DNA of 25,331 nt from a virus: IMG/VR virus record IMGVR_UViG_3300043570_002420, positions 1 through 25,331 of that record. One strand, 5' to 3'. The notes under the pieces are model-generated. The model was not told the origin of the DNA. It saw only the letters and a list, made by a program, of their open reading frames with translations, and made no database searches. Below are positions 109 through 18,076 of this stretch, piece after piece (position 1 is the stretch's first letter; each line of letters begins with the position of its first letter). The translations under genes were made by a program, and so were the position numbers.

Positions 109-174
109 TTGTTATAGGGTAAATATACATATAATTTTCGACATAAAAAAATATATTTTAATAAAGTTACGAAC
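109..174 (-). promoter_or_regulatory. Promoter cassette, 37-base spacing, no hairpin
   Basis: On the minus strand: the TGTTCGTAAC box (core 166-174), 37 bases, then GTATATTTAC (core 122-128), CCTATAAC and an A-rich leader before the lipoprotein start at 92. The TAA of the box is also the stop codon of the upstream 47-aa gene. Promoter role is inferred from recurrence before starts; the TATATTTAC core resembles the Bacteroidota -7 element (TAnnTTTG). Confidence 0.6.
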
Positions 175-310
175 AATCTTTCTTTTTATGTTTGTCTTTA
201 CGAAAATACTTCTTTTTATTACGATAAGGCGCAGGCACTTTAAGAGCATCAAACCATTCCTGTAATGTTATGTTAATTTTTTCTAATTTGATTTTTTTAG
301 TCTCTTTCAT
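167..310 (-). CDS. Small basic protein, unknown
   Basis: A 47-aa protein starting MKETKKIKLEKINITLQEWF and ending in a very basic tail (KKKYFRKDKHKKKDCS). It has a typical start context: an A-rich leader directly downstream of a promoter cassette. The basic tail could bind nucleic acid, but no family is recognised. Its last codons TGT TCG TAA form the conserved box of the next cassette, so coding and regulatory sequence overlap. Confidence 0.6.
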   Translation of the reverse strand: MKETKKIKLEKINITLQEWFDALKVPAPYRNKKKYFRKDKHKKKDCS

Positions 311-321
311 GATCTACTGTT

Positions 322-399
322 TTAATTATAAGGCTAATATACTAAAAAAAGCCCAAACTAAAAAATCTGGGCTTAACTATTTTTAAAAAAGTTACGAAC
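322..399 (-). promoter_or_regulatory. Promoter cassette, 48-base spacing, with hairpin
   Basis: Minus strand: TGTTCGTAAC box (391-399), 48 bases containing a terminator hairpin, GTATATTAGC (core 336-342), then CTTATAATTAAAAC leading to the 47-aa gene start at 310. Upstream is tRNA-Ala, not a protein gene, so the box does not depend on an overlapping stop codon. Confidence 0.6.
351..373 (-). terminator. Hairpin terminator inside cassette
   Basis: Stem GCCCA / TGGGC with an AT-rich loop, followed on the minus strand by a run of seven T. It lies between the conserved box and the promoter core and would stop read-through from tRNA-Ala. Confidence 0.65.
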
Positions 400-414
400 A
401 ATTGCATATTAAAC

Positions 415-441
415 CAAAAAGACCCATCGAATGATGAGTCT
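415..441 (-). terminator. Terminator after tRNA-Ala
   Basis: Nine-base stem AGACTCATC / GATGGGTCT (one G-U pair) with loop ATTC, followed by T's on the minus strand, starting eight bases beyond the tRNA-Ala 3' end. Confidence 0.6.
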
Positions 442-448
442 TCTTTAG

Positions 449-522
449 TGGAGGTGACAGGAATCGAACCTGCGACCCTCTGCGTGCAAGGCAGATGCTC
501 TAGCCAACTGAGCTACACCCCC
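449..522 (-). tRNA. tRNA-Ala (anticodon TGC)
   Basis: Full cloverleaf: acceptor GGGGGTG / CACCTCC (one G-U), D stem GCTC/GAGC, anticodon stem TCTGC/GCAGA with loop CTTGCAC, T arm with loop TTCGATT. Discriminator A; the 3' CCA is not encoded. It stands alone, over 20 kb from the main tRNA array, with its own terminator. The TGC anticodon reads GCA and, by wobble, other Ala codons. Confidence 0.95.
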
Positions 523-523
523 G

Positions 524-745
524 CGATACTTATATATCGTATTAATTTTAGCGATGTGAGAAACTAGCCTATTCCATTTAAAACTCATATCACTTCGGGA
601 TCTAACCGCTCTAATCTCAAGTTCAGTATCAGAACCATTCTGGTATGTGTTGATTAGTAACCTTTATCGTATATATGGTGTCCACCACTTTAGCATCAGA
701 GTGAATAAGTCTTAATGCCTACTCGAACAGTTTTTTAAGGTTTAA
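524..745 (-). ncRNA. Structured spacer RNA upstream of tRNA-Ala (candidate)
   Basis: About 200 bases with no credible gene. On the minus strand I see nested complementary segments: CTAATC/GATTAG enclosing hairpin CAGAA-TGG-TTCTG, an eight-pair helix GATATGAG/CTCACATC (one G-U), CACT/AGTG, and hairpin CGATA/TATCG just before the tRNA. Base composition is less AT-biased than ordinary intergenic sequence here. It is probably co-transcribed with tRNA-Ala. Best guess: a stable non-tRNA RNA like the spacer RNAs in the main array. No family is recognised. Confidence 0.35.
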
Positions 746-919
746 TTAGGCGTTGTTTTTCTCAGATACTTCTGTTCTAACAACTTGCGCTAAGTTTTTG
801 ATCTCTTGCATAGCTTTACGAACTCTTGTTCCAGCTGCTTTGTTTCCGTTTTCAAAGAATTTTGTTGCGTCAGCTTGAACTGCGTTTAATACTTCTTGAA
901 TTTGTGCTAATGTTTCCAT
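746..919 (-). CDS. Histone H1-like protein (Hc1 type)
   Basis: A 57-aa protein starting METLAQIQEVLNAVQADATK and containing FFENGNKAAGTRVRKAMQEI, then KNLAQVVRTEV. This is the core of the short histone H1-like (Hc1-related) proteins found across Bacteroidota, which end in or near a similar helix and bind DNA. Length is normal for the short form; the long Lys/Ala tail of chlamydial Hc1 is absent. It lies just before the structured region and tRNA-Ala on the same strand. A role in host or phage nucleoid packaging is inferred. Codon use is slightly less AT-rich than that of its neighbours. Confidence 0.85.
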   Translation of the reverse strand: METLAQIQEVLNAVQADATKFFENGNKAAGTRVRKAMQEIKNLAQVVRTEVSEKNNA

Positions 920-989
920 GTTTTATATTTGTTTTATTTATTATATATGTTATACTGGGCTGTTCTGGTTTGTTTCAATAGTGTATGAA
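920..989 (-). other. Intergenic leader of the H1-like gene
   Basis: Seventy AT-rich bases. On the minus strand it reads TATAATAAATAAAAC shortly before the ATG, an A-rich leader without Shine-Dalgarno sequence. No cassette box and no hairpin seen. Confidence 0.4.
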
Positions 990-1151
990 TTAATCTTCTT
1001 CTAATAGTCCTATCCACAATGCAACATATATCCAGAAGGTATATGGTATAAGTAGGAATATTAATCGCCATGCTATAGCTGATGTTCCGGTCGCTTTAGC
1101 AATACCACCGCAGACACCTCCAAGGTAACTGTTTGTTTTACTTCTTCTCAA
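990..1151 (-). CDS. PspC-domain-like small membrane protein
   Basis: A 53-aa reading frame with YLGGVCGGIAKATG followed by AWRLIFLLIPYTFWIYVALW. The GVCGGIA motif plus one following TM helix is the signature of the PspC domain (phage-shock protein C family), normally about 60 aa. No ATG fits: the frame opens just after a stop, and TTG at 1151 is the best start, inside the end of the preceding gene. The start is therefore uncertain. A role in envelope stress or membrane interaction is inferred only from the family. Confidence 0.65.
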   Translation of the reverse strand: MRRSKTNSYLGGVCGGIAKATGTSAIAWRLIFLLIPYTFWIYVALWIGLLEED

Positions 1152-1287
1152 TTTTATCTTTTTTTATTATGTTACCGTTTTCGTCCACTTCTGGTGCCTT
1201 ATACATATGATATGCAATAAAGCATCCTGTTATCAATAAGTAACCAATGATTACTTCTACTGTATTGTTTTGTATTAATCCCACCAT
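1138..1287 (-). CDS. Single-TM small protein
   Basis: A 49-aa protein MVGLIQNNTVEV, then a TM helix (about residues 11-27, IIGYLLITGCFIAYHMY) and a charged tail ending KKDKIEKK. Its start overlaps the last 13 bases of the upstream gene and its end overlaps the PspC-like gene, so the three look translationally coupled. The charge pattern predicts the C-terminus in the cytoplasm. Function is unknown. Confidence 0.6.
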   Translation of the reverse strand: MVGLIQNNTVEVIIGYLLITGCFIAYHMYKAPEVDENGNIIKKDKIEKK

Positions 1288-1910
1288 CTTTGAATATTTT
1301 CTTCCATTAACTTAAATAACAATTTGCTTGCTCTATTATGGTTGATGTGCCCAATATTCATTGCAATAACTTGTTTGTCATCTTCACGACCATCACGACC
1401 AAATGGACCTTCACCTGCTAAAACTCTTTTATAGATCAATGGATATTTCTTAAAGAAATCATCAAAATTCTCTTCTAATAAACGAGATTCCCATGAGCTA
1501 TAACCTTCTTTTCCTGGCACGTCTTCAAACCAATGTTTTGTTTTATGATAATCAGAGTATTCTGAGCTGTAAAAATCATCATCAATTAGTTTCATTAATC
1601 GAACGCATGTCATCATAATTTCAGCATCTCTTTGAGCTCTTGTGTGAATATCGCGGGCTCCAATATATTTTGATTGAGCTTTGATTTTGTGCATCATGAT
1701 TTCAAAGATATAGTGAGAATCCCAATTACGATCTTTCCAAATGATAGGAAACCAATAAATTATATTCTTAACTCCGGTTTTGAACATCTTAGGGTAATAC
1801 TTACCTTCATGATCCCACCAAAGTGGTATAAACCTAAGCTTTCTCACTATCCATGGTTTTTTGGATCTCTCTTCTTCCCATTGGTCGAATACGTCTAATT
1901 CTGGTTCCAT
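1275..1910 (-). CDS. Conserved phage protein, unknown
   Basis: A 211-aa soluble protein, rich in Trp, Lys and Asp, e.g. PWIVRKLRFIPLWWDHEGKY near the N-terminus and the segment AGEGPFGRDGREDD near residue 170. The ATG at 1910 follows an A-rich leader. It resembles a hypothetical protein I have seen in large phages, but I cannot name a domain. It heads a coupled set with the two small membrane proteins downstream. Nothing supports an enzymatic assignment. Confidence 0.8.
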   Translation of the reverse strand: MEPELDVFDQWEEERSKKPWIVRKLRFIPLWWDHEGKYYPKMFKTGVKNIIYWFPIIWKDRNWDSHYIFEIMMHKIKAQSKYIGARDIHTRAQRDAEIMMTCVRLMKLIDDDFYSSEYSDYHKTKHWFEDVPGKEGYSSWESRLLEENFDDFFKKYPLIYKRVLAGEGPFGRDGREDDKQVIAMNIGHINHNRASKLLFKLMEENIQRWWD

Positions 1911-1928
1911 CTTATTTATATTTAAATT

Positions 1929-2660
1929 TTAATTAATGTTTATGATAAAATCAAAGTCTTTTGAATATTTCTTTTTAAGTTCATTCAAGATTATCTGAGT
2001 ATATATTTTAGCACCTTCTGGTGTAGTATGTGACTTATCAGTTGGTGAATAAAAGTCTTTTGCTTTATCTTGTCCAATCTCTTCTAAAAACACTGACAGT
2101 ATTTCATTTGTATCTAGAAAACCAACTTTAGTTTCATTTGCAATGTCTTCCATAATTCTAGCATATTCTATTGAATAAGTTCTTTTATGGTGACCATCTT
2201 CCCATGTATTTCTTGGTATTTGACTTAAAAAATATAGTTTTGCGCCTTTGTCTTTTACCATTTGAGCTAGTCTTCTTAGATATTCGCCAAATGTATATAC
2301 CGTATACTCAACTTTATAATGTTCATCATAGACTATTTCAAATCTATCATCTTTTCCGGGTAATGATCCTCTTGCACCAAATCCACCAAAATCTGTTCTT
2401 GATAATGGTGATCTTTCTAATGTACCAAAAGATGCTAACAATATATCGTTTTCTTTAAGATTAGATACTATCAAATCTAAGATCTTAGCCTTGCGATTAA
2501 AGAAATCACGAATACCCCAACCAATCATACATTTATTTTCACTAATACATTTAGTGGTATCTAGATATTCATTGACATATTCTGCCCAACCTATCGTATC
2601 ATCACTGCAATCTTTTAGTCTGGCACCAGATGTTGAATCTCCTATAACTACCAGTTTCAT
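1929..2660 (-). CDS. SGNH/GDSL-type hydrolase (RGAE-like), altered block III
   Basis: A 243-aa protein. Block I is VIGDSTSG with Ser9 as nucleophile; block V is DKSHTTPEGA with Asp208 and His211, the D-x-x-H of the triad. The layout resembles rhamnogalacturonan acetylesterases (GDST... GHND... DxxH). Block III here reads FGTLE at 78-82 where that family has FGHND, so the oxyanion-hole Asn is replaced by Leu. It may be an O-acetylesterase acting on a host polysaccharide or on a carbohydrate made by the phage's own glycosyltransferases, or a derivative with changed chemistry. No signal peptide is present. Confidence 0.75.
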   Translation of the reverse strand: MKLVVIGDSTSGARLKDCSDDTIGWAEYVNEYLDTTKCISENKCMIGWGIRDFFNRKAKILDLIVSNLKENDILLASFGTLERSPLSRTDFGGFGARGSLPGKDDRFEIVYDEHYKVEYTVYTFGEYLRRLAQMVKDKGAKLYFLSQIPRNTWEDGHHKRTYSIEYARIMEDIANETKVGFLDTNEILSVFLEEIGQDKAKDFYSPTDKSHTTPEGAKIYTQIILNELKKKYSKDFDFIININ

Positions 2661-2665
2661 ATTGA

Positions 2666-3040
2666 TTATTTTGTTTTATGATTTTCTTCTAAATATTCAT
2701 ATAATGATTCAAATGAATAACATATTGGATTACCTTCTTTGTCGTGTGCTCCGAATCTAACTTCACCGCTTTTGTGTTCAAGTTCCATGTTACCCTCTTC
2801 GTTTATTTTATATGAATCAGATGTTGACCAATCTTTTTGACCATATTCACTGTCATGACAAAACCAACTAAACCAATCGTAACCCTCTTCGCCATATATT
2901 TCTTTGATCAATTCTGAAATAATCTCATGATATGGATCAACAAAATTAATTAGATCTACACCATTCGTATATAATGCGTTAATGGTTCTGTCTTCTTTTT
3001 GAAGGCTTAGAATTACTTTTAAAAATCTTTCGTATGTCAT
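2666..3040 (-). CDS. Conserved phage protein, unknown
   Basis: A 124-aa acidic protein. It starts MTYERFLKVILSLQKEDRTI and contains GVDLINF and GEEGYDWFSWFCHDSEYGQ, ending in FESLYEYLEENHKTK. This pattern (GVDLxNF, then EGxDWxxWFxxExxFG, then a terminal LxxYL) recurs in many phages of diverse hosts with no known function. It overlaps the upstream gene by four bases. Confidence 0.8.
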   Translation of the reverse strand: MTYERFLKVILSLQKEDRTINALYTNGVDLINFVDPYHEIISELIKEIYGEEGYDWFSWFCHDSEYGQKDWSTSDSYKINEEGNMELEHKSGEVRFGAHDKEGNPICYSFESLYEYLEENHKTK

Positions 3041-3252
3041 TTGTTGTCAAATTTTTCATGGTCAATTTTACCAGTTAATTGATATGCTTGCCATAAACTA
3101 GATACTGCATCATCTATATGTTTGCCAATCTCAGATTCTATTTTTGCGACTGGATGTTGCTGTAAATGATCGTCAGCCATACACATTATAACATGTAATC
3201 TGTCTAACATTTCGTGATAATGAAACTTATCTAATTTAGGTTTGGTACTCAT
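3037..3252 (-). CDS. Small helical protein, unknown
   Basis: A 71-aa protein, predicted mostly helical, with His/Met-rich segment YHEMLDRLHVIMCMADDHLQQH. It is packed between neighbours with a four-base overlap downstream. No family recognised. Confidence 0.65.
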   Translation of the reverse strand: MSTKPKLDKFHYHEMLDRLHVIMCMADDHLQQHPVAKIESEIGKHIDDAVSSLWQAYQLTGKIDHEKFDNK

Positions 3253-3255
3253 TAA

Positions 3256-3456
3256 TTATATATTTCTAGACAAAATACTAACCTCTTCCTCTTTTACTAG
3301 TTCCTCAATATCACTCCAACATAATTGAATTTCATGTGATTCTGGACTGCCTTCTTCGATTTCATCAATACATAACTGAACTAATGATTTTACCTCTTCT
3401 TTAAGTTGAGGATATTTGGTCATAACCAAATTTGCGAATTCTATTAAATTTGTCAT
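3256..3456 (-). CDS. Small acidic protein, unknown
   Basis: A 66-aa very acidic, probably helical protein (EVKSLVQLCIDEIEEGSPES in the middle). Its start overlaps the end of the upstream gene by four bases, indicating coupling. No family recognised. Confidence 0.65.
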   Translation of the reverse strand: MTNLIEFANLVMTKYPQLKEEVKSLVQLCIDEIEEGSPESHEIQLCWSDIEELVKEEEVSILSRNI

Positions 3457-3881
3457 TTTTTTGTTTTTAAATTAATGTTTGCAATAATATTATCTAGTGA
3501 ATGTGTAACGTTTTCCATGATCTCATCTTCCATTTCTAACCTTATTCCATTTAATTTTAAATCGAAAAAGTTTTTTAATTTAATATTGTGTGAGCCATAA
3601 AATGATATATCGTAACTATAAACATGATTTACAATTTTAAGACTTGATTCGTCTATAATTATAAAGTAATCACCGTTTTTAACATATCTTCTGTCTAAAT
3701 ATGGACCTGAATATAATAATTCTGAATCCGGATCATTTAAGAGTCTCATACAAATTGTTCTTGCCTTTTGTTGAGTAGGATCTAATTTTCTACTAGAATA
3801 TGCAACAGGATCAAAAGTTTTCTTAACTTTGATTTTTGCTTTTACAAAAGCTCTTTTGAAATAATGGAGTATACGTTTCAT
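3453..3881 (-). CDS. Unknown 142-aa protein
   Basis: A basic N-terminus (MKRILHYFKRAFVKAKIKVKK) is followed by a region predicted as alternating beta strands (YFIIIDESSLKIVNHVYSYD) and a helical C-terminus. The strong positive charge at the N-terminus suggests nucleic-acid or membrane contact. No domain recognised. Confidence 0.7.
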   Translation of the reverse strand: MKRILHYFKRAFVKAKIKVKKTFDPVAYSSRKLDPTQQKARTICMRLLNDPDSELLYSGPYLDRRYVKNGDYFIIIDESSLKIVNHVYSYDISFYGSHNIKLKNFFDLKLNGIRLEMEDEIMENVTHSLDNIIANINLKTKK

Positions 3882-5692: not shown

Positions 5693-6016
5693 TTATGATA
5701 CTTTAGATTTTAATGTAGATTCAACATGTGATATGAATTCTGTAGCACGAGACTTACTACCAACGTTCCATCTAGTTAATTGATTCATGGTATATTCTTG
5801 GTCATATGTTTTCCAATCATAAACCGTATAGATTTCTCCATTAAATTCAAAGATCCATTCAAAATTAACTTTACCGTCACCAGAATCTTCAGGTGTACAT
5901 GTAGGCTCTCCGAAGGCTTCACATAAATTACCGTAAGTTACATTGTCTAAATAACCACTTAATGATGTTCCTGAAGCATCAGCTTCTGATCTTGAAAGTT
6001 TTTTAAAATTTGTCAT
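5693..6016 (-). CDS. Conserved phage protein, unknown
   Basis: A 107-aa protein with YGNLCEAFGEPTCTPEDSGD, FEWIFEFNGEIYTVYDWK and a terminal WNVGSKS segment. The layout (Y..L...FG.P, then a beta-rich EW..F....Y.VYDWK, then W.VGG-like) is a recurring phage protein of unknown function. It is the first gene after a promoter cassette. Confidence 0.75.
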   Translation of the reverse strand: MTNFKKLSRSEADASGTSLSGYLDNVTYGNLCEAFGEPTCTPEDSGDGKVNFEWIFEFNGEIYTVYDWKTYDQEYTMNQLTRWNVGSKSRATEFISHVESTLKSKVS

Positions 6017-6028: not shown

Positions 6029-6107
6029 TTTAATTATAAGGCTAATATACTAAAAAAAAGCCAAACAAAAAAATGTTTGGCTGATTATTTTTTAAAAAGT
6101 TACGAAC
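6029..6107 (-). promoter_or_regulatory. Promoter cassette, 48-base spacing, with hairpin
   Basis: Minus strand: TGTTCGTAAC box (6099-6107), 48 bases with hairpin, GTATATTAGC (core 6044-6050), CTTATAATTAAAAC, then the gene starting at 6016. The box encodes the last codons TGT TCG TAA of the upstream 92-aa gene. Confidence 0.65.
6059..6082 (-). terminator. Hairpin terminator inside cassette
   Basis: Perfect eight-base stem AGCCAAAC / GTTTGGCT with a T/A-rich loop, followed by a run of eight T on the minus strand. Confidence 0.75.
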
Positions 6108-6378
6108 ATTTGCAGATTTTGATGTTAATATCTTTAAGGAATTCATGTATTTTAAAAAGTGATGGTTTTGCGTTCTCGTGTTCTAATGTAAACCACCAAC
6201 CTTTACCTTCACTATCAGTGATACTTATAGTACCCGATATGAATTCATATACCCTTTCTACTGTAATATTCTGCATTACAGTTTGACCATATTGATCTTT
6301 AACATGAAGTGCATCATTGTCTTTAACTAATTTAAGACAATCTCCTTCGTAATTTATAAGTCCTATTGAATTTTTCAT
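6100..6378 (-). CDS. Unknown 92-aa protein
   Basis: Beta-rich protein starting MKNSIGLINYEGDCLKLVKD, with GWWFTLEHE in the middle and a short helical end IKICKCS. No domain recognised. The last three codons overlap the conserved promoter box, so the C-terminus Cys-Ser may be dictated by the regulatory element. Confidence 0.65.
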   Translation of the reverse strand: MKNSIGLINYEGDCLKLVKDNDALHVKDQYGQTVMQNITVERVYEFISGTISITDSEGKGWWFTLEHENAKPSLFKIHEFLKDINIKICKCS

Positions 6379-6850: not shown

Positions 6851-7109
6851 TTTGTTTGTGTATTGGATTTTTACAATTTCCTTTATGGGATCCCCATTGG
6901 TTATTACCCATTCCGACTACAATATATTCACAACCTTCAAGAGTGTAGACTCTATAATTTTGATCAGAGTATTGTGAATTACTATCAAGTTCCATTTTAT
7001 GTGGATTTGATTTAGTTGAAACATGTACATTACCTTCGCAGCCTGTAACCACAAAGGCTACAAGCGCTGCAAAGATTAATATTAATAATGTTGCGTTTTT
7101 TCTATTCAT
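6837..7109 (-). CDS. Small lipoprotein with GCEYI...HKGNC motif
   Basis: A 90-aa protein with a signal peptide (NRKNATLLILIFAALVAFVV) and lipobox VTGC, Cys24 being the predicted lipidated residue. The C-terminal part reads LEGCEYIVVG...GSHKGNCKNP, a conserved Cys-containing motif seen in small Bacteroidota and phage proteins. Expected location: inner or outer membrane, periplasmic side. It sits one base from the NAMPT stop. Function unknown; superinfection exclusion is a possibility with no direct support. Confidence 0.75.
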   Translation of the reverse strand: MNRKNATLLILIFAALVAFVVTGCEGNVHVSTKSNPHKMELDSNSQYSDQNYRVYTLEGCEYIVVGMGNNQWGSHKGNCKNPIHKQNESN

Positions 7110-8593
7110 TATGAATTTCTTAAACGTTCTCTGATTTCAGTAAGGGTAGTTTGGTTTAAAAACTCTCCATCTTTATAGATAGTTTTTAACATTCCTTTAC
7201 TCTCATCTTCCCATGAGCATTGATCGACTAGCATATAACCATCGTTAATACTTTTATTAAAAATTTTAGCAACATGCAATAAACCTTTTGCAGATTTCTT
7301 AATACCATCGTCAGTGATTGGATCTTTAAAGATTTCACGACCTTCACCATTTACTTCAACATAAGTGGCTTTCATTGCAAAACCAAATGTATCTCTTGTA
7401 TTAAATTGATATGTGAATGAACCTACACCTAAAACGATATTTGTACTTGCAAATCCTTTTGCCTCTAAACGCTTACAGATTTCATTTGCTCTTTCGATTG
7501 TGATTGAATCTCCGTAGATTGCTCCAATGTGAGAGTCAAGAACTTTGTAACCTTGTTCATTGATTTCTCCACCGAATACATCCCATAATAATTCAACAAC
7601 ACCTTTCTCAATAGCATCTACATTTTCATCATATGGATTTTGTTCGTCATCCCATTTTTTACCACAAATAATTTCAACTGGATCACCAGAGTCAGGTCTA
7701 ATAACTACCTTACCATCACGAGCTAAAATCTCTTCTTTCAATGTAACGATATGTTCAGTACAAACTTTCCATAAGTCCCAAGTATCTGATACGATTGAAA
7801 GAATTCCTGTTGGATATGTTTCCATTAGGTTTCTAAATGTTCCAACCTCATCTTCTTTACTACCAGCACACATAACTGAGTGCTCAGTTGCATTCACAGA
7901 TCCAGCAACAAATCCAGTTTCTCCATAAAACTTACGAGCTCCGAAGATTGCTGGTAAACTGTCTGAACCTGAGAAACTTGTTAAGTGACCAAGACCTGAA
8001 CTAATAGTAGCATCAATAGAATCTAGACCTCTCATTGAGAAATCATGTCCTTGCCAATCAATAAACCAAGATCTTTCAGCATCGGTTTTTTCTTGCCATC
8101 CAGTCAACACTTTACGATATGCATGTGCAATAGTTGCAGAAGTCATTGGTTTCCATAACAAGTTAGAAATAATTGTTTCTAGGTAGTTTGTAATCCAATA
8201 AAAATCTGGATGTGTATTGTAGATTGTCAATACTGGAACTCTCATTGGTACTAAACTACCTTCTTCGATTGTTTTAACAATAATAGGCAAATAACCTAAA
8301 TCATGTAAAGCTTCAAAGTGACTAACATCATAGTCAGTATTTAAGTACATTGACAATTCTCTTTTCATTTCTCCACAAACTTCATCTTTAGGACGACTAA
8401 AGAAATCTTTTTCAAAAGCTTCGTGAATTTGTTTAACTACCATTTGTTGTCCAAATGATACTAATTGATCGCAACCTTGTGGTGCGTACTTGTTACTACG
8501 AGGAGTAAAGTTAGAATAAACCAACGTAGTTCCTTTTGGATATTGTTGGTGATGTCCTGTTTTGTAACCGTCTGTTAAAAATAATGGGTTCAT
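7109..8593 (-). CDS. nadV: Nicotinamide phosphoribosyltransferase (NAMPT/NadV), NARP1-type
   Basis: A 494-aa protein, as long as NAMPT enzymes (about 490). The N-terminus NPLFLTDGYKTGHHQQYP matches the substrate-binding start; HDFSMRG (Arg188), FSGSD, ATEHS (His238, the phosphohistidine position of NAMPT), SDTWDLW, VVIRPDSGDPVEI (Arg299) and GSFTYQFNTRDTFGFAMK all correspond to active-site segments. NAMPT makes NMN from nicotinamide and PRPP. In phage NARP1 its relative joins nicotinamide to ADP-ribose-pyrophosphate, giving NAD+ directly. The PRPP-synthetase-like partner lies 1.4 kb upstream on the same strand, favouring NARP1. It is preceded by its own promoter cassette. Confidence 0.95.
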   Translation of the reverse strand: MNPLFLTDGYKTGHHQQYPKGTTLVYSNFTPRSNKYAPQGCDQLVSFGQQMVVKQIHEAFEKDFFSRPKDEVCGEMKRELSMYLNTDYDVSHFEALHDLGYLPIIVKTIEEGSLVPMRVPVLTIYNTHPDFYWITNYLETIISNLLWKPMTSATIAHAYRKVLTGWQEKTDAERSWFIDWQGHDFSMRGLDSIDATISSGLGHLTSFSGSDSLPAIFGARKFYGETGFVAGSVNATEHSVMCAGSKEDEVGTFRNLMETYPTGILSIVSDTWDLWKVCTEHIVTLKEEILARDGKVVIRPDSGDPVEIICGKKWDDEQNPYDENVDAIEKGVVELLWDVFGGEINEQGYKVLDSHIGAIYGDSITIERANEICKRLEAKGFASTNIVLGVGSFTYQFNTRDTFGFAMKATYVEVNGEGREIFKDPITDDGIKKSAKGLLHVAKIFNKSINDGYMLVDQCSWEDESKGMLKTIYKDGEFLNQTTLTEIRERLRNS

Positions 8594-8607: not shown

Positions 8608-8673
8608 TAATTATAAAGTAAATATACTAATAATAATTGATCTGGTAAAATTTATTATTAAAAAGTTACGAAC
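8608..8673 (-). promoter_or_regulatory. Promoter cassette, 37-base spacing, no hairpin
   Basis: Minus strand: TGTTCGTAAC box (8665-8673), 37 bases without hairpin, GTATATTTAC (core 8621-8627), TTTATAATTAAAAAC, then NAMPT at 8593. Without a terminator here, NAMPT can be read both from this promoter and from upstream. Confidence 0.65.
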
Positions 8674-8675
8674 AT

Positions 8676-9197
8676 TTATAGTTTGTAAATTACCACTGAC
8701 ACTTTCATATCTTTTAGTTCTGTTTGGATAATGGTTTTAATTCTGTTCCAGTCTCCGCCTGCTAATCCTGCACCAATCTTTGGCAATCCAATATGTTTGC
8801 CTTTGAACGTGTGATTTATCTTGCGCATACACATTGTTAGTGCTTCGTAATCAATTGGTTTAGCAGTTCCATCTTTATGATTTGCACCATAATTATATTG
8901 AGTATATGAATTAACAACATATGGTATTGCACCATCTCTTTCAACTAGCCATTCAATTTGTCCTAATTTGTTAATATCACCTTTACGAGTAAAAGATTCA
9001 AGAGGATATTGATCAACTCCAAATGCTTTTGCCATTTGAGGTGCTATTCCAGCACCCATTGTGCTCATGCAATTACAACCATGTGTAATAACATCAAATG
9101 TACCTTCGTTGGCTAATTTGATTAGATCACCATTAATTTCTTGATAATTTGTATCAACCTCTATCTCTGATTTTATAAAATCATTTAATTGTCCCAT
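8676..9197 (-). CDS. ADP-ribose-binding macrodomain protein (Poa1p/ALC1-like)
   Basis: A 173-aa single macrodomain. NGDLIKL (22-28), THGCNCMSTMGAGIAPQMA (38-56) with the glycine loop, LGQIEW, VVNSYTQYNYG and LPKIGAGLAGGDWNRI (138-153), ending VSVVIYKL. This is the macrodomain fold of the Poa1p/TARG1/ALC1 type, which binds ADP-ribose and can hydrolyse ADP-ribose-1''-phosphate, O-acyl-ADP-ribose or ADP-ribosyl adducts on proteins or nucleic acids. It starts where the PTH2-like gene ends (one-base overlap). Lying between the two NAD+-rebuilding genes, it may process ADP-ribose made by host defence NADases or remove ADP-ribose marks. Confidence 0.93.
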   Translation of the reverse strand: MGQLNDFIKSEIEVDTNYQEINGDLIKLANEGTFDVITHGCNCMSTMGAGIAPQMAKAFGVDQYPLESFTRKGDINKLGQIEWLVERDGAIPYVVNSYTQYNYGANHKDGTAKPIDYEALTMCMRKINHTFKGKHIGLPKIGAGLAGGDWNRIKTIIQTELKDMKVSVVIYKL

Positions 9198-9828: not shown

Positions 9829-10040
9829 ATTAAATTTAATTGTGTTAGTTCTTCAATGGCTGCATCAAATGCTTCTTGCCATGTTCGGTATAAATACCAA
9901 TCTCTTACTTCAATTTTTTCATAGTTACCAAAGTGTTCATATTTGTATATGTCGAATGCAAACTTTGGAGCACTTGTACGGTCCACTTCTATTTCTATAA
10001 CGTATCCGTGTTGTGTGAATAATGAATCAACTGTATACAT
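9825..10040 (-). CDS. Unknown 71-aa protein
   Basis: An alpha/beta protein starting MYTVDSLFTQHGYVIEIEVD, with a helical C-terminus (TWQEAFDAAIEELTQL). Coupled by one base to the PRPP-synthetase-like gene and by four bases to the next. No family recognised. Confidence 0.65.
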   Translation of the reverse strand: MYTVDSLFTQHGYVIEIEVDRTSAPKFAFDIYKYEHFGNYEKIEVRDWYLYRTWQEAFDAAIEELTQLNLI

Positions 10041-10915
10041 TAGAATATGTTAAATGCAATTGTTTTAGTGTTCTCACCATACTCATTATCTGCAACTTCT
10101 CGGTAGCTATTTGTTGTATAGATGCCTTCAAAATATTGTGATAATTCTTTAAATCCAGCACTAAAAATACCATGTGTTACTACTAAATAAACTTTAGCAC
10201 TTGGTCGGCTTCCTTTAATAGCTTTAGCCAATTCAATGAAAGTTCTACCACCATCACAAATGTCATCAATGATAACGTACTTTAAATCTGCATGTTGATC
10301 TAAAGTGGGAATCTCAGTTCTAAGAATCTTTCCAGTTTTAATATCTCGCACTTTAGATGCTGTAACAATATTATCAATGTTAAATTCTTTTGCAACATCA
10401 AAGATCTTTTTATAAGCGCCAGCATCTGGACTTACTAAACAGATTCTGCTTTGTGCACCATCTTTATTATCAATCTTTGTTAATGCATCTTTAACCAAAC
10501 GATGGTTATTGTGTTTGTGATAGTTATTCAAACAAGCTTCTAAAACATCTGAGTGAGGATCTAATACTGTCACTCTTGAGAAGTTTTGTGCATTGATGAT
10601 TGGACAAATAACTGTTTTAAGGTAGTTACTGGTACCAGCCTCGAATTTACGATCTGAACGAGCTCCTAAAAAATAAGGTACATTTAACTTAACATTCTCG
10701 ACATATGAAAATTCACGAAGTGCTTGATTAGCAGCAATAATGATTTCTAAATCCTTAAATGAATTAAATCGACTTGTAATACTTACTGTGATTTTGTTTG
10801 GTAAATCTGCATCAACCATATCTAATGTGATTGATTGCTGACCATCAGGAAATCGAGAGATTTTGTATTTAATGTCTGAATTTTCTAGGTCTACTAAGTT
10901 TAATTTCTGTACCAT
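10040..10915 (-). CDS. prs: PRPP synthetase-like protein (NARP1 ADP-ribose pyrophosphokinase candidate)
   Basis: A 291-aa ribose-phosphate pyrophosphokinase-family protein. YFLGARSDRKF (81-91) is the ATP-binding PxxYARQDR region, VLDPHSD (117-123) matches DLHxxQ, VSPDAGAYKK (161-170) and KYVIIDDICDGGRTF (212-226) is the PRPP loop. Prs makes PRPP from ribose-5-phosphate and ATP. Phage relatives paired with NAMPT act on ADP-ribose instead, giving ADP-ribose-1''-pyrophosphate for NAD+ rebuilding. PDPHSD in place of DLHxxQ and the NAMPT partner fit the specialised role, but the substrate cannot be read from sequence alone. Confidence 0.9.
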   Translation of the reverse strand: MVQKLNLVDLENSDIKYKISRFPDGQQSITLDMVDADLPNKITVSITSRFNSFKDLEIIIAANQALREFSYVENVKLNVPYFLGARSDRKFEAGTSNYLKTVICPIINAQNFSRVTVLDPHSDVLEACLNNYHKHNNHRLVKDALTKIDNKDGAQSRICLVSPDAGAYKKIFDVAKEFNIDNIVTASKVRDIKTGKILRTEIPTLDQHADLKYVIIDDICDGGRTFIELAKAIKGSRPSAKVYLVVTHGIFSAGFKELSQYFEGIYTTNSYREVADNEYGENTKTIAFNIF

Positions 10916-10921: not shown

Positions 10922-10948
10922 TTTCTTTTTAATTATATGTAAATATAC
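10922..10948 (-). promoter_or_regulatory. Promoter core without upstream box
   Basis: Minus strand GTATATTTAC (core 10942-10948) followed by ATATAATTAAAAAG and the start at 10915. This is the same core and leader as the seven cassettes, but at 37 or 48 bases upstream no GTTCGTAAC box is present. The upstream gene's coding end (GTTAACAAG) is only vaguely similar. Confidence 0.5.
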
Positions 10949-10990: not shown

Positions 10991-11395
10991 TCAAAACTTG
11001 TTAACAATTATACGTCCGGTAATCTGGGTGCCATTTTGAGTGTCTTCCGTGGCCCAATCTATAAGATCACCTTTCATAATTTGTTCACATATTTCTCTAG
11101 CAATTCCAGCCTTATACATGTCCATTGCAAAATTTCCACTGGTAGATGCATTACCGGATCCACTGGTAGAAAAATCAGTACCATACATCATTTCCATATT
11201 AGACATGTTTCTAGTGCTTCTAATTTGTATAGGATTTCCTATTTTAGTATCGTAAACAAATGCCTTTCCAGTTTCATTTTTACGCTCTCTTTTAAAGAAC
11301 ATTGAAATTGGCCAAAGAAAATATAATATTTCTTTCCAATCAAAATTCTTTAGGTTCTGATCCATTCGATCGCACCATTCGTTAAATCTTTTCAT
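10991..11395 (-). CDS. Unknown 134-aa protein
   Basis: Starts MKRFNEWCDRMDQNLKNFDW, a possible membrane-proximal hydrophobic stretch LYFLWPISMFF (about residues 24-34), a low-complexity STSGSGNASTSG linker near the middle, and a folded end ITGRIIVNKF. No domain recognised. It starts where the preceding gene stops (one-base overlap). Confidence 0.7.
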   Translation of the reverse strand: MKRFNEWCDRMDQNLKNFDWKEILYFLWPISMFFKRERKNETGKAFVYDTKIGNPIQIRSTRNMSNMEMMYGTDFSTSGSGNASTSGNFAMDMYKAGIAREICEQIMKGDLIDWATEDTQNGTQITGRIIVNKF

Positions 11396-13412: not shown

Positions 13413-13640
13413 TTAAAGTCCAGTTTCTCTTCTAAAATCGTAATCTTCTTTTTCAGCCTCAGAATATACATTAAGATTCAAGTATCGTCCTTCTGAAAGT
13501 TTACTAGTTGAGGTACGAGTTTCTTCGTGGTCCCAATTGAAACAAAAATCATACTCTTCTTGAGTCAAATACTCTTTGGTATTCATGATCTCTTGATACT
13601 GTTTGTACTCTTGTTCTGTTAAATAAAGTTCTTCTGTCAT
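13413..13640 (-). CDS. Small acidic protein, unknown
   Basis: A 75-aa protein with two related stretches, LTEQEYKQYQEIMN and LTQEEYDFCFNW, which may be a duplicated short helix. First gene after a promoter cassette. No family recognised. Confidence 0.65.
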   Translation of the reverse strand: MTEELYLTEQEYKQYQEIMNTKEYLTQEEYDFCFNWDHEETRTSTSKLSEGRYLNLNVYSEAEKEDYDFRRETGL

Positions 13641-13651: not shown

Positions 13652-13718
13652 TTAATTATAAGGCTAATATACAACTAATATTTGATATAAAAAAATATAT
13701 TAAGATAAAGTTATTAAC
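13652..13718 (-). promoter_or_regulatory. Promoter cassette, 37-base spacing, box diverged inside coding sequence
   Basis: Minus strand: variant box GTTAATAAC (13710-13718), 37 bases, GTATATTAGC (core 13666-13672), CTTATAATTAAAAAC, start at 13640. The box and part of the gap lie inside the last codons of the SWIM-protein gene, which may explain the change from GTTCGTAAC. Confidence 0.55.
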
Positions 13719-14044
13719 AATTCATCTTTTTTTGCTTTAATGTGTTTACAATCACCTCGGTGGAAGCTTTTTGATGGACATGTACAATTCCAAGATCCAT
13801 TAGTATCTGAAACTGTATAAGTTACACCAGCTTTAGAACCATTTACCTGCCATTCTTTTTTAGGTGACTCTGGTCGAGTTTCTTTTTTAGGTACATTAAC
13901 TGCTGCCTCAAACTTAATTTGCTCTCTAGTAGTACCATCTGGCACAGGATGCCAGCCTGGACATACATATGTACCTGATAGAGTCTTAACTATGGCAAAA
14001 ACATCACCATAAAAAGTACTGCGAGGAAATGTATAAATTTTCAT
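13700..14044 (-). CDS. SWIM-type zinc-finger protein
   Basis: A 114-aa protein whose C-terminal part reads WNCTCPSKSFHRGDCKHIKA (about residues 84-103): C-x-C-x(n)-C-x-H, the SWIM zinc-binding motif. SWIM domains bind DNA or proteins. The preceding WQVNGSKAGVTYTVSD strand is typical of small phage SWIM proteins. The N-terminal part includes TYVCPGWHPVP and is of unknown fold. No enzymatic domain is attached. Confidence 0.8.
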   Translation of the reverse strand: MKIYTFPRSTFYGDVFAIVKTLSGTYVCPGWHPVPDGTTREQIKFEAAVNVPKKETRPESPKKEWQVNGSKAGVTYTVSDTNGSWNCTCPSKSFHRGDCKHIKAKKDELLITLS

Positions 14045-14046: not shown

Positions 14047-14271
14047 TTATCGTTCTAGGATTACAAATTCACCAAATGCATTATCAAAAACCTCTAAAAG
14101 ATGTTCATAGTCACTTGACATCATATCGGTAATAAGTGAAGCACCTCTGTCCTTCCAACCCAATTGAGTTGCAAATCGTTTAGCATAAGCCATAAGAGCA
14201 AATGCATTACCATCAGGTCCTGTTAAATCAATAATAATTGGTCCGTTTTTCTCTTGTTTTTCTCTGATCAT
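14047..14271 (-). CDS. Conserved small phage protein, unknown
   Basis: A 74-aa protein: IIIDLTGPDGNAFALMAYAK, then MMSSDYEHLLEVFDNAFGEF. The IDLTGPDGNAF...SDYEHLLEVFD layout is a recurring small phage protein of unknown function, from memory. First gene after a promoter cassette. Confidence 0.75.
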   Translation of the reverse strand: MIREKQEKNGPIIIDLTGPDGNAFALMAYAKRFATQLGWKDRGASLITDMMSSDYEHLLEVFDNAFGEFVILER

Positions 14272-14279: not shown

Positions 14280-14361
14280 TCTTTTAATTACTAAGCTAAT
14301 ATACAAAAAAAAGCCCAAACTAAAAAATTTGGGCTCAACTATTTTTAAAAAAGTTACGAAC
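14280..14361 (-). promoter_or_regulatory. Promoter cassette, 48-base spacing, with hairpin
   Basis: Minus strand: TGTTCGTAAC box (14353-14361), 48 bases with hairpin, GTATATTAGC (core 14298-14304), TTAGTAATTAAAAG, then the gene at 14271. The leader has AGTAATT where others have TATAATT. Confidence 0.6.
14312..14335 (-). terminator. Hairpin terminator inside cassette
   Basis: Perfect eight-base stem AGCCCAAA / TTTGGGCT followed by a run of T on the minus strand. The stem differs from those at 6059 and 18028 (AGCCAAAC), so the pairing is kept while the bases change. Confidence 0.75.
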
Positions 14362-14364
14362 AAT

Positions 14365-14628: not shown

Positions 14629-15273
14629 TTACCAATTTTTCTTGTAATTCACATCATCAACCCATGAGAATAAACGAGTCTCTTCAACATCATGTAAGAT
14701 AATAGTCTTATCAGTTACCTTATCATTATAAAAATATTCATAATTAAATAGTGCAACATCCAAATCCATTTTTTCAATAATCTTATTGTTAAATGTTTTA
14801 CAACCATGTGCCCATGTTATTCTATCATAGACACCAAGACATTCATTGATAATTCTACTTTGAGGCGTAGATCCATATACAGTACAATCAATAAGAGTAT
14901 TGTGTTCTTGAGTGGGTTTCATTCCAGCAAAAAATGTATGTTCCTCTGAAAGTTGTTCCAATATTATATCAAATGGTCTAATAGGTTTTGCATCAATATC
15001 ACAATAAACACCACCAAAATCTCTAAGTAAAAGAAGTCTAACTCTGTCAGCAATAAATGCCCATTTATAAACTTCTGGTTCCTTTACATAATTTTGTAAA
15101 AATGGATCATCTTTGTAAAGATCATTGAAAATATCATCATGACTCCACAGCTTATATTCCCAATCTGGATGCATTGCTTGCATCTCTTCACCAAATCTTT
15201 TACACCAGTCCGGTACTTCTTTATAGCCAATCCAAACTTGATGCAGTTTCTTTGGTATTTTATTTCCTGCCAT
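14629..15273 (-). CDS. GT32-like glycosyltransferase (DXD sugar-transferase)
   Basis: A 214-aa protein starting with KIPKKLHQVWIGYKEVPDWC (typical of the Och1/GT32 group, IPKxIHQxW), HPDWEYKLWSHDD, and FIADRVRLLLLRDFGGVYCD followed by IDAKP: the DXD motif (DID) that binds the metal and nucleotide-sugar. These enzymes move a hexose to an acceptor in glycan synthesis. In a phage the acceptor could be modified DNA bases, virion glycans or host surface polysaccharide. Length is short but includes the whole catalytic core. Confidence 0.88.
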   Translation of the reverse strand: MAGNKIPKKLHQVWIGYKEVPDWCKRFGEEMQAMHPDWEYKLWSHDDIFNDLYKDDPFLQNYVKEPEVYKWAFIADRVRLLLLRDFGGVYCDIDAKPIRPFDIILEQLSEEHTFFAGMKPTQEHNTLIDCTVYGSTPQSRIINECLGVYDRITWAHGCKTFNNKIIEKMDLDVALFNYEYFYNDKVTDKTIILHDVEETRLFSWVDDVNYKKNW

Positions 15274-15278
15274 AGAAT

Positions 15279-15494
15279 TTATTTATTTTTAGACCAAACT
15301 AATTTTGCATCCACATGTACATTTATGACATTAGGATTCTTGTTTAGAATTGCATTAATATATGCTGTTGGATTTTTAACCTTATCATATGCCTTGGTTT
15401 CACCATTAGACAATTCTACAACTACTGTTGAACCGCCTGGAGTTAGACTTAAATTGTTTGTTCTAAACTCGTCACTTACGTAATATCCGCTCAT
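15279..15494 (-). CDS. Unknown 71-aa protein
   Basis: Starts MSGYYVSDEFRTNNLSLTPG, then a beta-rich part VVVELSNGETKAYDKVKNPT and NVINVHVDAKLVW. Stop and start lie five bases from the glycosyltransferase start and two from the upstream gene. No family recognised. Confidence 0.65.
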   Translation of the reverse strand: MSGYYVSDEFRTNNLSLTPGGSTVVVELSNGETKAYDKVKNPTAYINAILNKNPNVINVHVDAKLVWSKNK

Positions 15495-15496
15495 AA

Positions 15497-16084
15497 TTAT
15501 TTTATATATTTAAATAGATTTAATACCTCTGGGCACTCAAATCTTTCTGGGTGCCATTGAACTGCAATGATTTTAAGTTCTTCATCTTCTATGGCTTCTG
15601 GAATCCAACCACCATCAAAAGACATATGAGTCACGTTAAAATTATCTGCAATAATTGAGCACCATTGATGATGCCTAGAATTAACTTCAAACATTACATC
15701 GTCTAGATTTTTGATGTAATGAAATTGTGATTCTCTTTCACTATGATCCTCATCATCTGAGAATTCATCACTTTGATGATATTCTGCTATTCTGTCTTTT
15801 AGATCTTCAACCTTACCACCAAAATAGTGATTCAATATTTGCATGCCACGACAAACTCCTATAATTGGTTGTTGTGCATCTAATGCCATTTTTATCCAAC
15901 CAAGTTCACGTCGATCTCTTTCAGGATTTTTACCAATATCTGCACCTCCACATAACATTAATGGAGCATCTATCTTTTTATACCTAAGATCTATCATAAT
16001 AGGTTCAAAACCCTTTGATATAATCCAATCAATATATGCTCTTCCTTCTATTTCACCTTTCGGCGGTGCAACGAATACTTTCAA
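15497..16084 (-). CDS. Class I glutamine amidotransferase-like, peptidase C26 (gamma-glutamyl-GABA hydrolase type)
   Basis: A 195-aa protein. LMLCGGADIG (43-52), IIGVCRGMQILN (74-85) with nucleophile Cys78, the RHHQW segment (138-142), and VQWHPER (175-181) with His178 and Glu180: a complete catalytic triad. The single-domain layout matches PuuD-like gamma-glutamyl hydrolases, which release glutamate from gamma-glutamyl amides. Stand-alone amidotransferase domains can also feed ammonia to a partner synthetase, but none is seen here. Possible role in modifying a gamma-glutamyl metabolite or protein; unclear in a phage. Confidence 0.9.
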   Translation of the reverse strand: MKVFVAPPKGEIEGRAYIDWIISKGFEPIMIDLRYKKIDAPLMLCGGADIGKNPERDRRELGWIKMALDAQQPIIGVCRGMQILNHYFGGKVEDLKDRIAEYHQSDEFSDDEDHSERESQFHYIKNLDDVMFEVNSRHHQWCSIIADNFNVTHMSFDGGWIPEAIEDEELKIIAVQWHPERFECPEVLNLFKYIK

Positions 16085-16089
16085 ACCTT

Positions 16090-16326
16090 TTATTTTTTTA
16101 TGATAACTTGTCTAATTCTGTCAAATATTTTCTTTAAATCTTCTTCAGAATCAAATGACCATTGTTCAGTACTTAGTGTAAAGAAGCATCCACTATCTCG
16201 GTCAATACCAAGACTTGATTGTGCTTTAACTTCTAAGAATTCATAATCATTATTACCATCTAGACAATGTGAATCTTGTGAGAATCTAAAAGTTGCCTCT
16301 TCTAAAATTAGTCCTTGCTCTTCCAT
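16090..16326 (-). CDS. Unknown 78-aa protein
   Basis: Acidic N-terminal half, FRFSQDSHCLDGNNDYEFLE, then FTLSTEQWSFDSEEDLKKIF. The general look (a strand-rich small domain ending in a helix) suits a small structural or regulatory phage protein. No family recognised. Confidence 0.65.
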   Translation of the reverse strand: MEEQGLILEEATFRFSQDSHCLDGNNDYEFLEVKAQSSLGIDRDSGCFFTLSTEQWSFDSEEDLKKIFDRIRQVIIKK

Positions 16327-16337
16327 ATTAGTTATAT

Positions 16338-17630
16338 TTAAAAATCTCTTTCAGTTTCATAAATAGCTTTTATAGTTGGAAATCTTAAACTAGTTCCACC
16401 ATTTTGATTATGTGTTTCTTCAAAATATTGAACCGTAACTTGTTTACCAATAATATCGCTAGGATTGTTAAAATAATGACGTCGTTGTTCGTGATTAAAA
16501 CCACTACCAACTTGAACTCGGTATCCTTTATGTTCAATGATAATATTTTTTAACATCAATTCAGAAACTTCTGAACCATCAACAATAACTCGCTGTATAT
16601 CATGCTCAACATCTACCACAATATACTCTGCATCATGGAATGATTTTACTTTAAGTACTTCGTCAGATCTTTTACCTTTGTAAGTTGTATTCTTACGTAA
16701 CATAAGTCCTTCCCAACCTTCGTTTTTAGAATGCTCTAATAAACTAGCAAACATATCGTCTGCACACATGAATTGATCTAAGACTGAAACACCTGTTAAA
16801 CCTTCTGGAACAATGCTTTCAATGTTTGCGATACGTTGACCAAATTTAGTAGTTGAAACTTTAGATTCAAACTCTTTGATTGTTAAGTGGTCAAAAATAT
16901 AATAATGTGGTTGTTTGATTGTGTAATCTTTACGTTTGATCTCTTTCATAATACTTGTGAAATCTTCGTTTCCATTTGCATCTACAATACAAATCTCACC
17001 ATCTAATACAGTATTAATAAGACCAAGTTGTCTAATAGAAGGCTTAAGATTATCAAGTGTTAAGAATTCATTTCCTACACGAGAATAAAATCTAGGTTCA
17101 CCTTGACCATCTATAATGCATACACATCGACATCCATCTAATTTACGACTAACAAACCAACCATCTGACCATTTAACTTTCTTTTGAGTTTTTTCGTCAT
17201 AAGCTTTTGCTAATGCAACGTCAAATGTAGGAATAAGACCTGGGATTGCAGTATTGATCATGGATGCTGTAGCTCTCGTTTTAAGATTACGATCAATGAC
17301 ATTAAAGATTAGCTCCTCGGATTCAGGATATGCGCCAACAAACGCATTGACTGCTTGAATAGCGGAGTGGCCAGTAATATTACGATCATTAAGGTCGTCG
17401 AGCAAACTAAAAAGATTGCTATACATGTTTTCTGGAGCAACCAAGTCGCTGCGTTTTTTACAAGTTTCTGAAGTAACATAATATTGTTTAAAAGTATTAT
17501 ATGTATACTCCAATACTTTGCGAATTGCCAGATTGTCAGCATATGCCTTTAATACGTTCAATTTGTCAGTATTACTATTTGTAGAATTTTGAGCATCTAC
17601 GAACTCTTGTATTTGTTTTAAATCTTGCAT
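16338..17630 (-). CDS. ATP-dependent DNA ligase
   Basis: A 430-aa enzyme. Motif I is SRKLDGCRCV with Lys163 as adenylated residue; LDGEICI (209-215) is motif III-like with Glu212; EGLMLRK (307-313) is motif IV; VLKVKSF (325-331) is motif V; a C-terminal OB domain ends with SLRFPTIKAIY (414-424), the motif VI region. It seals nicks in duplex DNA using ATP. The 160-aa N-terminal helical region before motif I fits the DNA-binding domain of phage ligases. All key motifs are intact. Confidence 0.95.
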   Translation of the reverse strand: MQDLKQIQEFVDAQNSTNSNTDKLNVLKAYADNLAIRKVLEYTYNTFKQYYVTSETCKKRSDLVAPENMYSNLFSLLDDLNDRNITGHSAIQAVNAFVGAYPESEELIFNVIDRNLKTRATASMINTAIPGLIPTFDVALAKAYDEKTQKKVKWSDGWFVSRKLDGCRCVCIIDGQGEPRFYSRVGNEFLTLDNLKPSIRQLGLINTVLDGEICIVDANGNEDFTSIMKEIKRKDYTIKQPHYYIFDHLTIKEFESKVSTTKFGQRIANIESIVPEGLTGVSVLDQFMCADDMFASLLEHSKNEGWEGLMLRKNTTYKGKRSDEVLKVKSFHDAEYIVVDVEHDIQRVIVDGSEVSELMLKNIIIEHKGYRVQVGSGFNHEQRRHYFNNPSDIIGKQVTVQYFEETHNQNGGTSLRFPTIKAIYETERDF

Positions 17631-17785
17631 TATTCTTCTGTTTTATCTTCGATTACTAAATATTTTTGACCACCTTCTAATTCTTTAACTGTACCACTTT
17701 CAATAAGTGTTTTAACATAATTAGGATTTTCTTTGTTTAAAAATGCCAACATCTGAATTGTAGGCTCCATGTAAATTACTTTCAT
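17630..17785 (-). CDS. Small protein, unknown
   Basis: A 51-aa protein starting MKVIYMEPTIQMLAFLNKEN; it then has ESGTVKELEGGQKYLVIEDK. Its stop overlaps the ligase start (TAATG), so the two are coupled. The short helix-strand content gives no family. Confidence 0.65.
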   Translation of the reverse strand: MKVIYMEPTIQMLAFLNKENPNYVKTLIESGTVKELEGGQKYLVIEDKTEE

Positions 17786-17805
17786 ATTATATGTGAATTA
17801 TTTAA

Positions 17806-17985
17806 TTAAGCTGGATAAAGACCAAAAATAAGAGTTTCACGTCTAGCCGCTTTTTCGCGTTCCATGAAATAACTTAACTTGGCAGTATAGTAATTCAAAT
17901 CTTCGATATCTAAGTTTTCAATTGCTTGATTAACTTTGTAACGATAGTAACTAATTTTGTCTGAATAATCTTTTTTAGTGCTCAT
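17806..17985 (-). CDS. Unknown 59-aa protein
   Basis: Starts MSTKKDYSDKISYYRYKVNQ and is predicted helical (AIENLDIEDLNYYTAKLSYF). The longer open frame upstream (to 18078) would run through the promoter core and terminator and is hydrophobic by accident; the ATG at 17985, directly after the A-rich leader, is the right start. No family recognised. Confidence 0.7.
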   Translation of the reverse strand: MSTKKDYSDKISYYRYKVNQAIENLDIEDLNYYTAKLSYFMEREKAARRETLIFGLYPA

Positions 17986-17995
17986 ATTTTGTTTG

Positions 17996-18076
17996 TTTTT
18001 AATTATAGAGTAAATATACACAAAAAAAGCCAAACAAAAAAATGTTTGGCTAATTATTTTTAAAAAAGTTACGAAC
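17996..18076 (-). promoter_or_regulatory. Promoter cassette, 48-base spacing, with hairpin
   Basis: Minus strand: TGTTCGTAAC box (18068-18076), 48 bases with hairpin, GTATATTTAC (core 18013-18019), TCTATAATTAAAAAC, then the 59-aa gene. It separates the DUF2589 region from the ligase region. Confidence 0.65.
18028..18051 (-). terminator. Hairpin terminator inside cassette
   Basis: Perfect stem AGCCAAAC / GTTTGGCT followed by seven T on the minus strand; ends the transcript of the upstream 160-aa gene. Confidence 0.75.

Follow-up and report, generated by a model that had tools for sequence, protein, structure and literature searches.

The DNA stretch analyzed here, the whole 25,331 nt of the IMG/VR virus record IMGVR_UViG_3300043570_002420 (hereafter the window), carries a series of promoter-like cassettes on its minus strand, in which a short box, TGTTCGTAAC, with the inverted repeat GTTnnnAAC, lies upstream of a core sequence, GTATATTWRC. 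The gap between box and core, in the window and in related viral records, is close to 27, 37, 47–48 or 58 bases, values one helical turn apart, which supports the view that the spacing acts as a helical-phase constraint. From the sequence comparisons, the box is probably the operator of an activator that is kept in phase with the polymerase site. The exact box was found six times in the window (0.04 expected) and the pattern TGTTNNNAAC-N24..54-GTATATTWR seven times (0.01 expected), and none of 100 shuffles reached six or seven, respectively. With two mismatches allowed, the box was found 32 times against 21.6 expected, which is barely over chance and indicates that the signal is carried by the exact box. 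All eight minus-strand GTATATTWRC cores in the window are part of cassettes, and no match to this core was found on the plus strand of the window. Seven of the cassettes had been described in the original prediction, three with a gap of 37 and four with a gap of 48, and a recount by script returned the same values (in coordinate order 37, 48, 48, 37, 37, 48 and 48).

When the cassette was searched with any gap from 23 to 53, it was found in 52 stretches of viral contigs, as compared to one viral stretch for a cassette with a reversed box and a slightly looser core; the shuffle counts and this reversed-box control rule out a chance origin. The 36 virus records behind these stretches and the window together comprise 37 records (1.71 Mb), several of which overlap or repeat, and counts are therefore given for de-duplicated sequences. 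None of the 76 distinct exact boxes in these records lacked a core-like sequence within 90 bases. A same-strand GTATATTW was found for 64 of them, at gaps of 27 (4 boxes), 36 (1), 37 (13), 46 (4), 47 (16), 48 (19), 57 (1) and 58 (6), and a core with one mismatch for nine, eight with called gaps of 37, 38, 47 or 48 and one, in record G008, with a called gap of 44, where an unflagged GTATATTG could also be read by eye at 37. Three boxes were inverted; measured in the GTTnnnAAC frame, their gaps are 27 or 47. For 81 distinct boxes, the Rayleigh R was 0.94 with a best period of 10.3–10.4.

Since the cassette pattern had served to select the 36 records, a fair test of the phase has to use boxes outside the search criterion. 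There were 27 such exact boxes, and 21 had a same-strand core at 15–100 bases, all 21 in phase, defined as within 1.5 of 27, 37, 47.5 or 58 (by our own arithmetic, about 15% of the range falls within such windows). The six non-seed boxes without a core we take to be three inverted boxes and three with degenerate cores. Variants with other central triplets behaved similarly: all those with a core were in phase for TGTTCGCAAC (9/9; one of ten without a core), TGTTAATAAC (11/11; 16 of 27 without a core in the 37 records) and TGTTAACAAC (3/3; three of six without a core). Six other central triplets were represented by 33 boxes, and neither any of these nor any of six reversed boxes had a core at 15–100 bases. 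Allowing all 64 central triplets in the viral collection, CGT, CGC, AAT or AAC was present in 57 of the 61 distinct boxes among the matches listed. Searches at gaps of 53–83 with any triplet returned only 57–58 among the matches listed, and those with the exact box without its flank and a looser core returned mostly 58; a scan of gaps 3–25 gave no matches. The original proposal that gaps 11 bases apart would keep both sites on the same DNA face is thus upheld by the phase seen in the 36 related records and beyond, and arbitrary spacing, named at the outset as an observation that would contradict it, was looked for in the relatives, where the spacing proved to be phased. The restriction to exactly 37 or 48 was too narrow, as related records also use 27, 47 and 58.

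The box was also found to shift by whole turns between orthologues, as seen when promoters were grouped into families by the gene downstream. The promoter of the nicotinamide phosphoribosyltransferase (NAMPT) gene has the box at 37 or 47, that of Fam 8 at 37, 47 or 58, that of Fam 10 (encoding a poly(A)-polymerase-head protein) at 37 or 58, and those of Fam 12 and Fam 13 both at 37, 47 or 48. In two families the box can also be missing (Fam 4: none, 47, 48 or 58; Fam 2: none, 27 or 37). The occurrence of the box at different turns in the same promoter excludes common descent at a fixed length, and can be explained by selection for the helix face.

The promoter anatomy was derived from an alignment of 96 promoters, both boxed and boxless, with positions given relative to the first core base. 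An A-tract at about −42 to −37 is followed by a T-run (−23 to −18), the sequence T(G)TCAA (−15 to −10), the core (0 to +9) and TAATTAAAA from +14. The box has the extended consensus AAWTGTT(CGT/CGC/AAT/AAC)AACTTT with dyad-related flanks, and this extended symmetry, AAnnGTTnnnAACnnTT, agrees with the earlier view of GTTnnnAAC as a dimer-like inverted repeat. In Flavobacterium psychrophilum, the host-type −7 box TAnnTTTG lies at −12 to −5 (PMC9723704). By this geometry, transcription from the cassettes would start at around core base +13, the T-run would span −36 to −31, and the box would be centred at about −45, −55, −65/−66 or −76. The TATATTWR part of the core sits correctly relative to the A-rich leader, and the exact TATATTTG is a minority form here and common in the TGTTAATAAC set. 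Flavobacterial sigma-A promoters have TTG as their −33 element; at this position, a T-run was found and no consistent match to the generally expected TTG.

We propose that the cassettes act as promoters in a T4-type phage with a Bacteroidota host; the core GTATATTWRC would hold the −7 box (TAnnTTTG-like) of a host-type primary sigma factor, with the conserved T-run in the place of the −33 element and the A-tract in that of the UP element. The box would be bound by a DNA-binding activator, probably as a dimer, which would face the polymerase from the same side at every turn and recruit it, probably via the flexibly tethered alpha C-terminal domain (alpha-CTD), in the manner of CRP at class I promoters. 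In cassettes with the upstream gene's terminator fused between box and core, the box lies at 46–48 or 57–58. A sigma-like factor on the box, as originally suggested, is unlikely, since sigma regions 2 and 4 need near-fixed spacing and the distance from box to core varies by whole turns. A phage origin of the factor, as originally proposed, is not supported, and no cognate protein was found among the searched proteins of the 165 kb record G014.

GC-stem hairpins, as called by a rule that looked inside the spacer only, were absent from the distinct spacers at 27 (0/9) and 36–38 (0/23), and present in 29 of 42 at 46–48 and in all seven at 57–58. The hairpin loop keeps the T-run position in the 46–48 class, and the T-run is the terminator's own T-tract in the 58 class, both as read from alignments. 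The idea that terminator insertion makes the extra turn does not hold as a rule, as 13 of the 42 spacers at 46–48 have no called hairpin. In one gap-37 promoter, G014:48022, the terminator arms flank the box, which by eye lies in the hairpin loop. Among the seven cassettes first described in the window, each of the four gap-48 copies has a GC-stem terminator with a T-run, and no such terminator was found in the three gap-37 copies; the claim of a hairpin confined to the longer gap is therefore correct for GC-stem terminators, and fails in that the gap-37 spacer of the cassette at 8665 has a dyad made of A/T only. Similarly, the sequence TATAATTAAAAAC, said to follow the core, is present exactly in three of the seven copies (8665, 13710 and 18068), with near variants in the other four.

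Several observations weigh against an activator held in helical phase. Three matches from the looser search at gaps of 53–83 were off-phase at 72–73, one of them being a second GTATATT behind a gap-37 promoter. The orientation of the box is strongly biased (78 forward and 3 inverted of 81), for which a purely symmetric site would have no need. Boxless promoters with the same core make up 44 of 95, a few of them being in-gene chance matches by eye, and the box is thus not essential to the promoter type. In the TGTTAATAAC set (64 distinct spacers among the matches listed), off-phase gaps of 24–26, 29, 41 and 42 were found, mostly without the AA flank, and these we take for chance matches. Finally, when 19 distinct G014 proteins were compared to Pfam, a DNA-binding transcription domain above the cut-off was found only in an ECF-type sigma factor.

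An unlikely alternative is that the box is the operator of a repressor, with a protein on the same face blocking or trapping RNA polymerase or looping to another site. Two points are in its favour: phase alone cannot tell activation from repression, and a few unrelated contigs (L250, L256 and L266) have paired TGTTAATAAC boxes 21 bp apart. However, the boxes lie upstream of the promoter rather than over it, at four distances, and most cassettes have a single box. The −33 T-runs were also somewhat weaker in boxed promoters (four T or fewer in 13 of 39, vs 6 of 38 boxless promoters; P = 0.04, Mann-Whitney), the direction expected if an activator compensates, although this is a weak test.

We give an equally low probability to a direct polymerase contact without a separate activator. 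The box would then be an unusual UP-element subsite for alpha-CTD (perhaps following modification by the phage) or act as an architectural bend. Sites for alpha-CTD are also phased, A and T tracts flank the box, and the promoters have phased A/T tracts. On the other hand, the central triplet is limited to CGT, CGC, AAT and AAC (57/61 among the matches listed), and a CG step would be odd amid an A/T-type UP element. Furthermore, alpha is universal, and yet the cassette was matched only once in bacterial genome contigs (257 Gb; in Oceanobacillus, about the chance level by hand estimate), and a relaxed cassette was not matched in six Bacteroidota plasmids (3.64 Mb).

Recent copying of cassettes as the sole reason for the fixed gaps is disfavoured and highly improbable: the gap-48 terminator cassettes of the window are nearly identical, as copying would predict, but after removal of spacers at least 70% alike, 17 were left, and the 13 with known box types were all at 27, 37, 47–48 or 58 (the other four dissimilar spacers, with gaps of 50, 54, 60 and 69, have unrelated triplets), and between orthologues the box shifts by one or two whole turns. 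Least probable of all is a 3′-terminal RNA element of the upstream gene, acting in processing or termination, its distance to the next promoter being incidental. In its favour, boxes in the window lie on or next to the stop codon of the preceding gene, and GTTCGTAAC with the T-runs behind it looks like a very small hairpin with a tail. However, none of the 76 distinct exact boxes is without a core-like sequence within 90 bases, and phasing to the following start site is not what such an RNA element would show.

The box-bearing records encode T4-type markers, including a terminase (Pfam Terminase_6N), tail sheath, baseplate wedge, head protease and a gp55-like late sigma factor (phrog_234). The nearest named relatives of the sheath are from the uncultured LR756500 (47%) followed by, among others, Tenacibaculum and Flavobacterium phages (about 32–34%), and because of these latter relatives we infer that the host belongs to the phylum Bacteroidota. 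In G014, 14 of 16 GTATATTWRC matches are preceded by a phased box and followed by a gene start, and the other two have neither box nor gene. These 14 cassettes are located at 45–50 and 100–143 kb, whereas the genes for baseplate, sheath, terminase and protease occupy 7–9 and 75–92 kb, which suggests that the boxed promoters may be of an early or middle class, with the late genes under gp55. No convincing cassettes were found in LR756500, LR756502, Tenacibaculum phages PTm1 and pT24, Flavobacterium phages MaF61 and 11b, Cellulophaga phages phi18:3, phi40:1 and phi13:1, crAss001, or Nonlabens phages P12024S and L.

The sequence TGTTAAYAAC-TTT upstream of GTATATTWR was found in at least 120 viral stretches. 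Of the 115 loci analyzed among the matches listed, 58 had no protein similarity to nine box-bearing records, and in these 58, boxes with a matching flank keep the same phase (R = 0.65, p ~8e-4; 17 distinct spacers among the matches listed). Phase in contigs without detected kinship suggests that the box is read by a factor of the host, which is possible, or by one shared widely among phages. Small contigs were checked for microviruses, which would imply a host factor, and the profiled ones carry a tailed-phage portal, primase/helicase or exonuclease. In L250, L256 and L266, the two boxes are exactly two turns apart with a single core, at gaps of 36/57 or 37/58. As a tentative extension, which we would not rate as probable, one unrecognized activator, possibly host-encoded, may be exploited by several unrelated Bacteroidota phage lineages via GTT(CGY/AAY)AAC at any of four turns, hopping between turns in evolution while the terminator is accommodated.

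The ECF-type sigma factor (G014:105629–106243, also L085:5629–6243) has Pfam sigma-70 regions 2 and 4 and is kept in G004, G008, G011, G013, G014, G030 and G031, with more distant forms in LR756500 and Lak phages. Its own gene has a promoter with a phased box in G014 and G031, and not in G008. As a reader of the box it is not supported, having homologues in Lak and other huge phages; a relaxed cassette search of four Lak/huge-phage records with such homologues gave one chance-like match. Homologues in both G013 and G008 were found for 96 of 214 open reading frames (ORFs) of G014, and the shared ORFs absent from the box-free LR756500 include no obvious DNA-binding family. A basic protein of 114 residues is encoded at 13700–14044 of the window. 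Its homologues were detected in G000, G004, G008, G011, G013 and G014, but not in LR756500, and the one in G014 weakly matches a SWIM zinc finger (E 0.009, which misses the Pfam cut-off), making the protein a weak candidate for a DNA-binding protein.

All cassettes in the window are on the minus strand. The first has its box TGTTCGTAAC at 166–175, within which the short ORF 167–310 ends with its final codons and stop. The box is separated by 37 bases from the core GTATATTTAC at 119–128, which holds a sigma-A-like −7 box, TATATTTA, and is followed by a short leader and an ATG at 92, both this ATG and the ORF end being read from the sequence. The second box TGTTCGTAAC (391–400) has a gap of 48 to the core GTATATTAGC at 333–342 (script recount), with a predicted intrinsic terminator stem-loop at 349–374 in between, and lies downstream of tRNA-Ala (448–522). 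This lone tRNA gene precedes the cassette; the window has 14 tRNA genes, all on the minus strand, with the other 13 within 21312–25297. The box TGTTCGTAAC at 6099–6108 holds the stop codon of ORF 6100–6378 and has a gap of 48 to the core GTATATTAGC at 6041–6050, upstream of ORF 5693–6016, with a stem-loop at 6059–6082 called by terminator scan. Both this box and that at 166–175 are at the same time the coding end of the upstream gene (TGT TCG TAA, C-terminal codons plus stop), indicating tight packing of operator and coding sequence. The box TGTTCGTAAC at 8665–8674 is directly past the stop of ORF 8676–9197, with a gap of 37 to the core GTATATTTAC at 8618–8627, upstream of the NAMPT-like ORF 7109–8593. 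An eighth cassette, overlooked in the original prediction, comprises the variant box TGTTAACAAG at 10997–11006 and, after a gap of 48, the core GTATATTTAC at 10939–10948, upstream of the ribose-phosphate pyrophosphokinase-like ORF 10040–10915; its spacer has an AT-rich dyad that was not called by the terminator scan. These two ORFs form a putative NAD salvage pair, each with a separate boxed promoter, and are kept with the box in G014. The variant box TGTTAATAAC at 13710–13719 has two mismatches and a gap of 37 to the core GTATATTAGC at 13663–13672, upstream of ORF 13413–13640. The last two cassettes have gaps of 48, with terminator-scan stem-loops at 14311–14336 and 18028–18051: the box TGTTCGTAAC at 14353–14362 with the core GTATATTAGC at 14295–14304, upstream of ORF 14047–14271, and the box TGTTCGTAAC at 18068–18077 with the core GTATATTTAC at 18010–18019, upstream of an ORF ending at 17806 (ATG near 17985, read from the sequence).

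The cassettes form a natural promoter set that reveals the helical phasing of a regulatory site through comparative sequence alone, including orthologous promoters shifted by whole turns. They define a class of promoters of uncultured phages of Bacteroidota; no description of the transcription programme of these phages was found in the literature searched, and the box sequence AAATTGTTCGTAACTTTT offers a specific bait for finding the protein. No paper was found whose title or abstract describes this box, and letter-string matches look by title like primers or unrelated DNA. Two known types of site were rejected: the motif SM6 of ECF sigma promoters has a CGT-type −10 box (PMC9723704), as opposed to the core GTATATTWRC, and the Bacteroidetes LexA operator (PMC8565304) is GGA-N5-TCC or CTAA-N5-TTAG rather than GTTnnnAAC.

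Among known systems, phage Mu Pm has a dimeric activator, Mor, at a dyad site centred at −43.5 and a partial UP element at −57 to −52 (PMC4390567), and thus resembles the present promoters in combining a dyad activator site, here predicted, with an UP-like element; unlike here, the Pm site has a single fixed position in one described promoter, and its sequence is different. T4 middle promoters are likewise used by host polymerase in a T4-type phage with an extra upstream activator box, the MotA box, which replaces the −35 element. The MotA box is at a fixed 12 ± 1 bp from the −10 element (PMC2988021). The box described here is farther out, with gaps of 27–58, and moves by whole turns. The core partly resembles the flavobacterial sigma-A promoter TAnnTTTG (PMC9723704) in its forms TATATTTG, TATATTTA and TATATTAG and its A-rich leader, and differs in having a T-run and TGTCAA at −36 to −23 instead of TTG, and an extra box. 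The CRP consensus in Escherichia coli is unrelated to the box sequence. The architecture is nevertheless like that of E. coli CRP class I promoters, with an upstream operator moving in steps of about 10 bp on the same face of one polymerase promoter: class I positions are 10 bp apart (PMC10882989), and strength has a periodicity of about 10.5 bp (PMC6301791). A putative operator upstream of the core at whole helical turns, by which class I is recognized, was also found here, in contrast to E. coli at four turns within one phage group and with what is predicted to be a Bacteroidota-type sigma-A.

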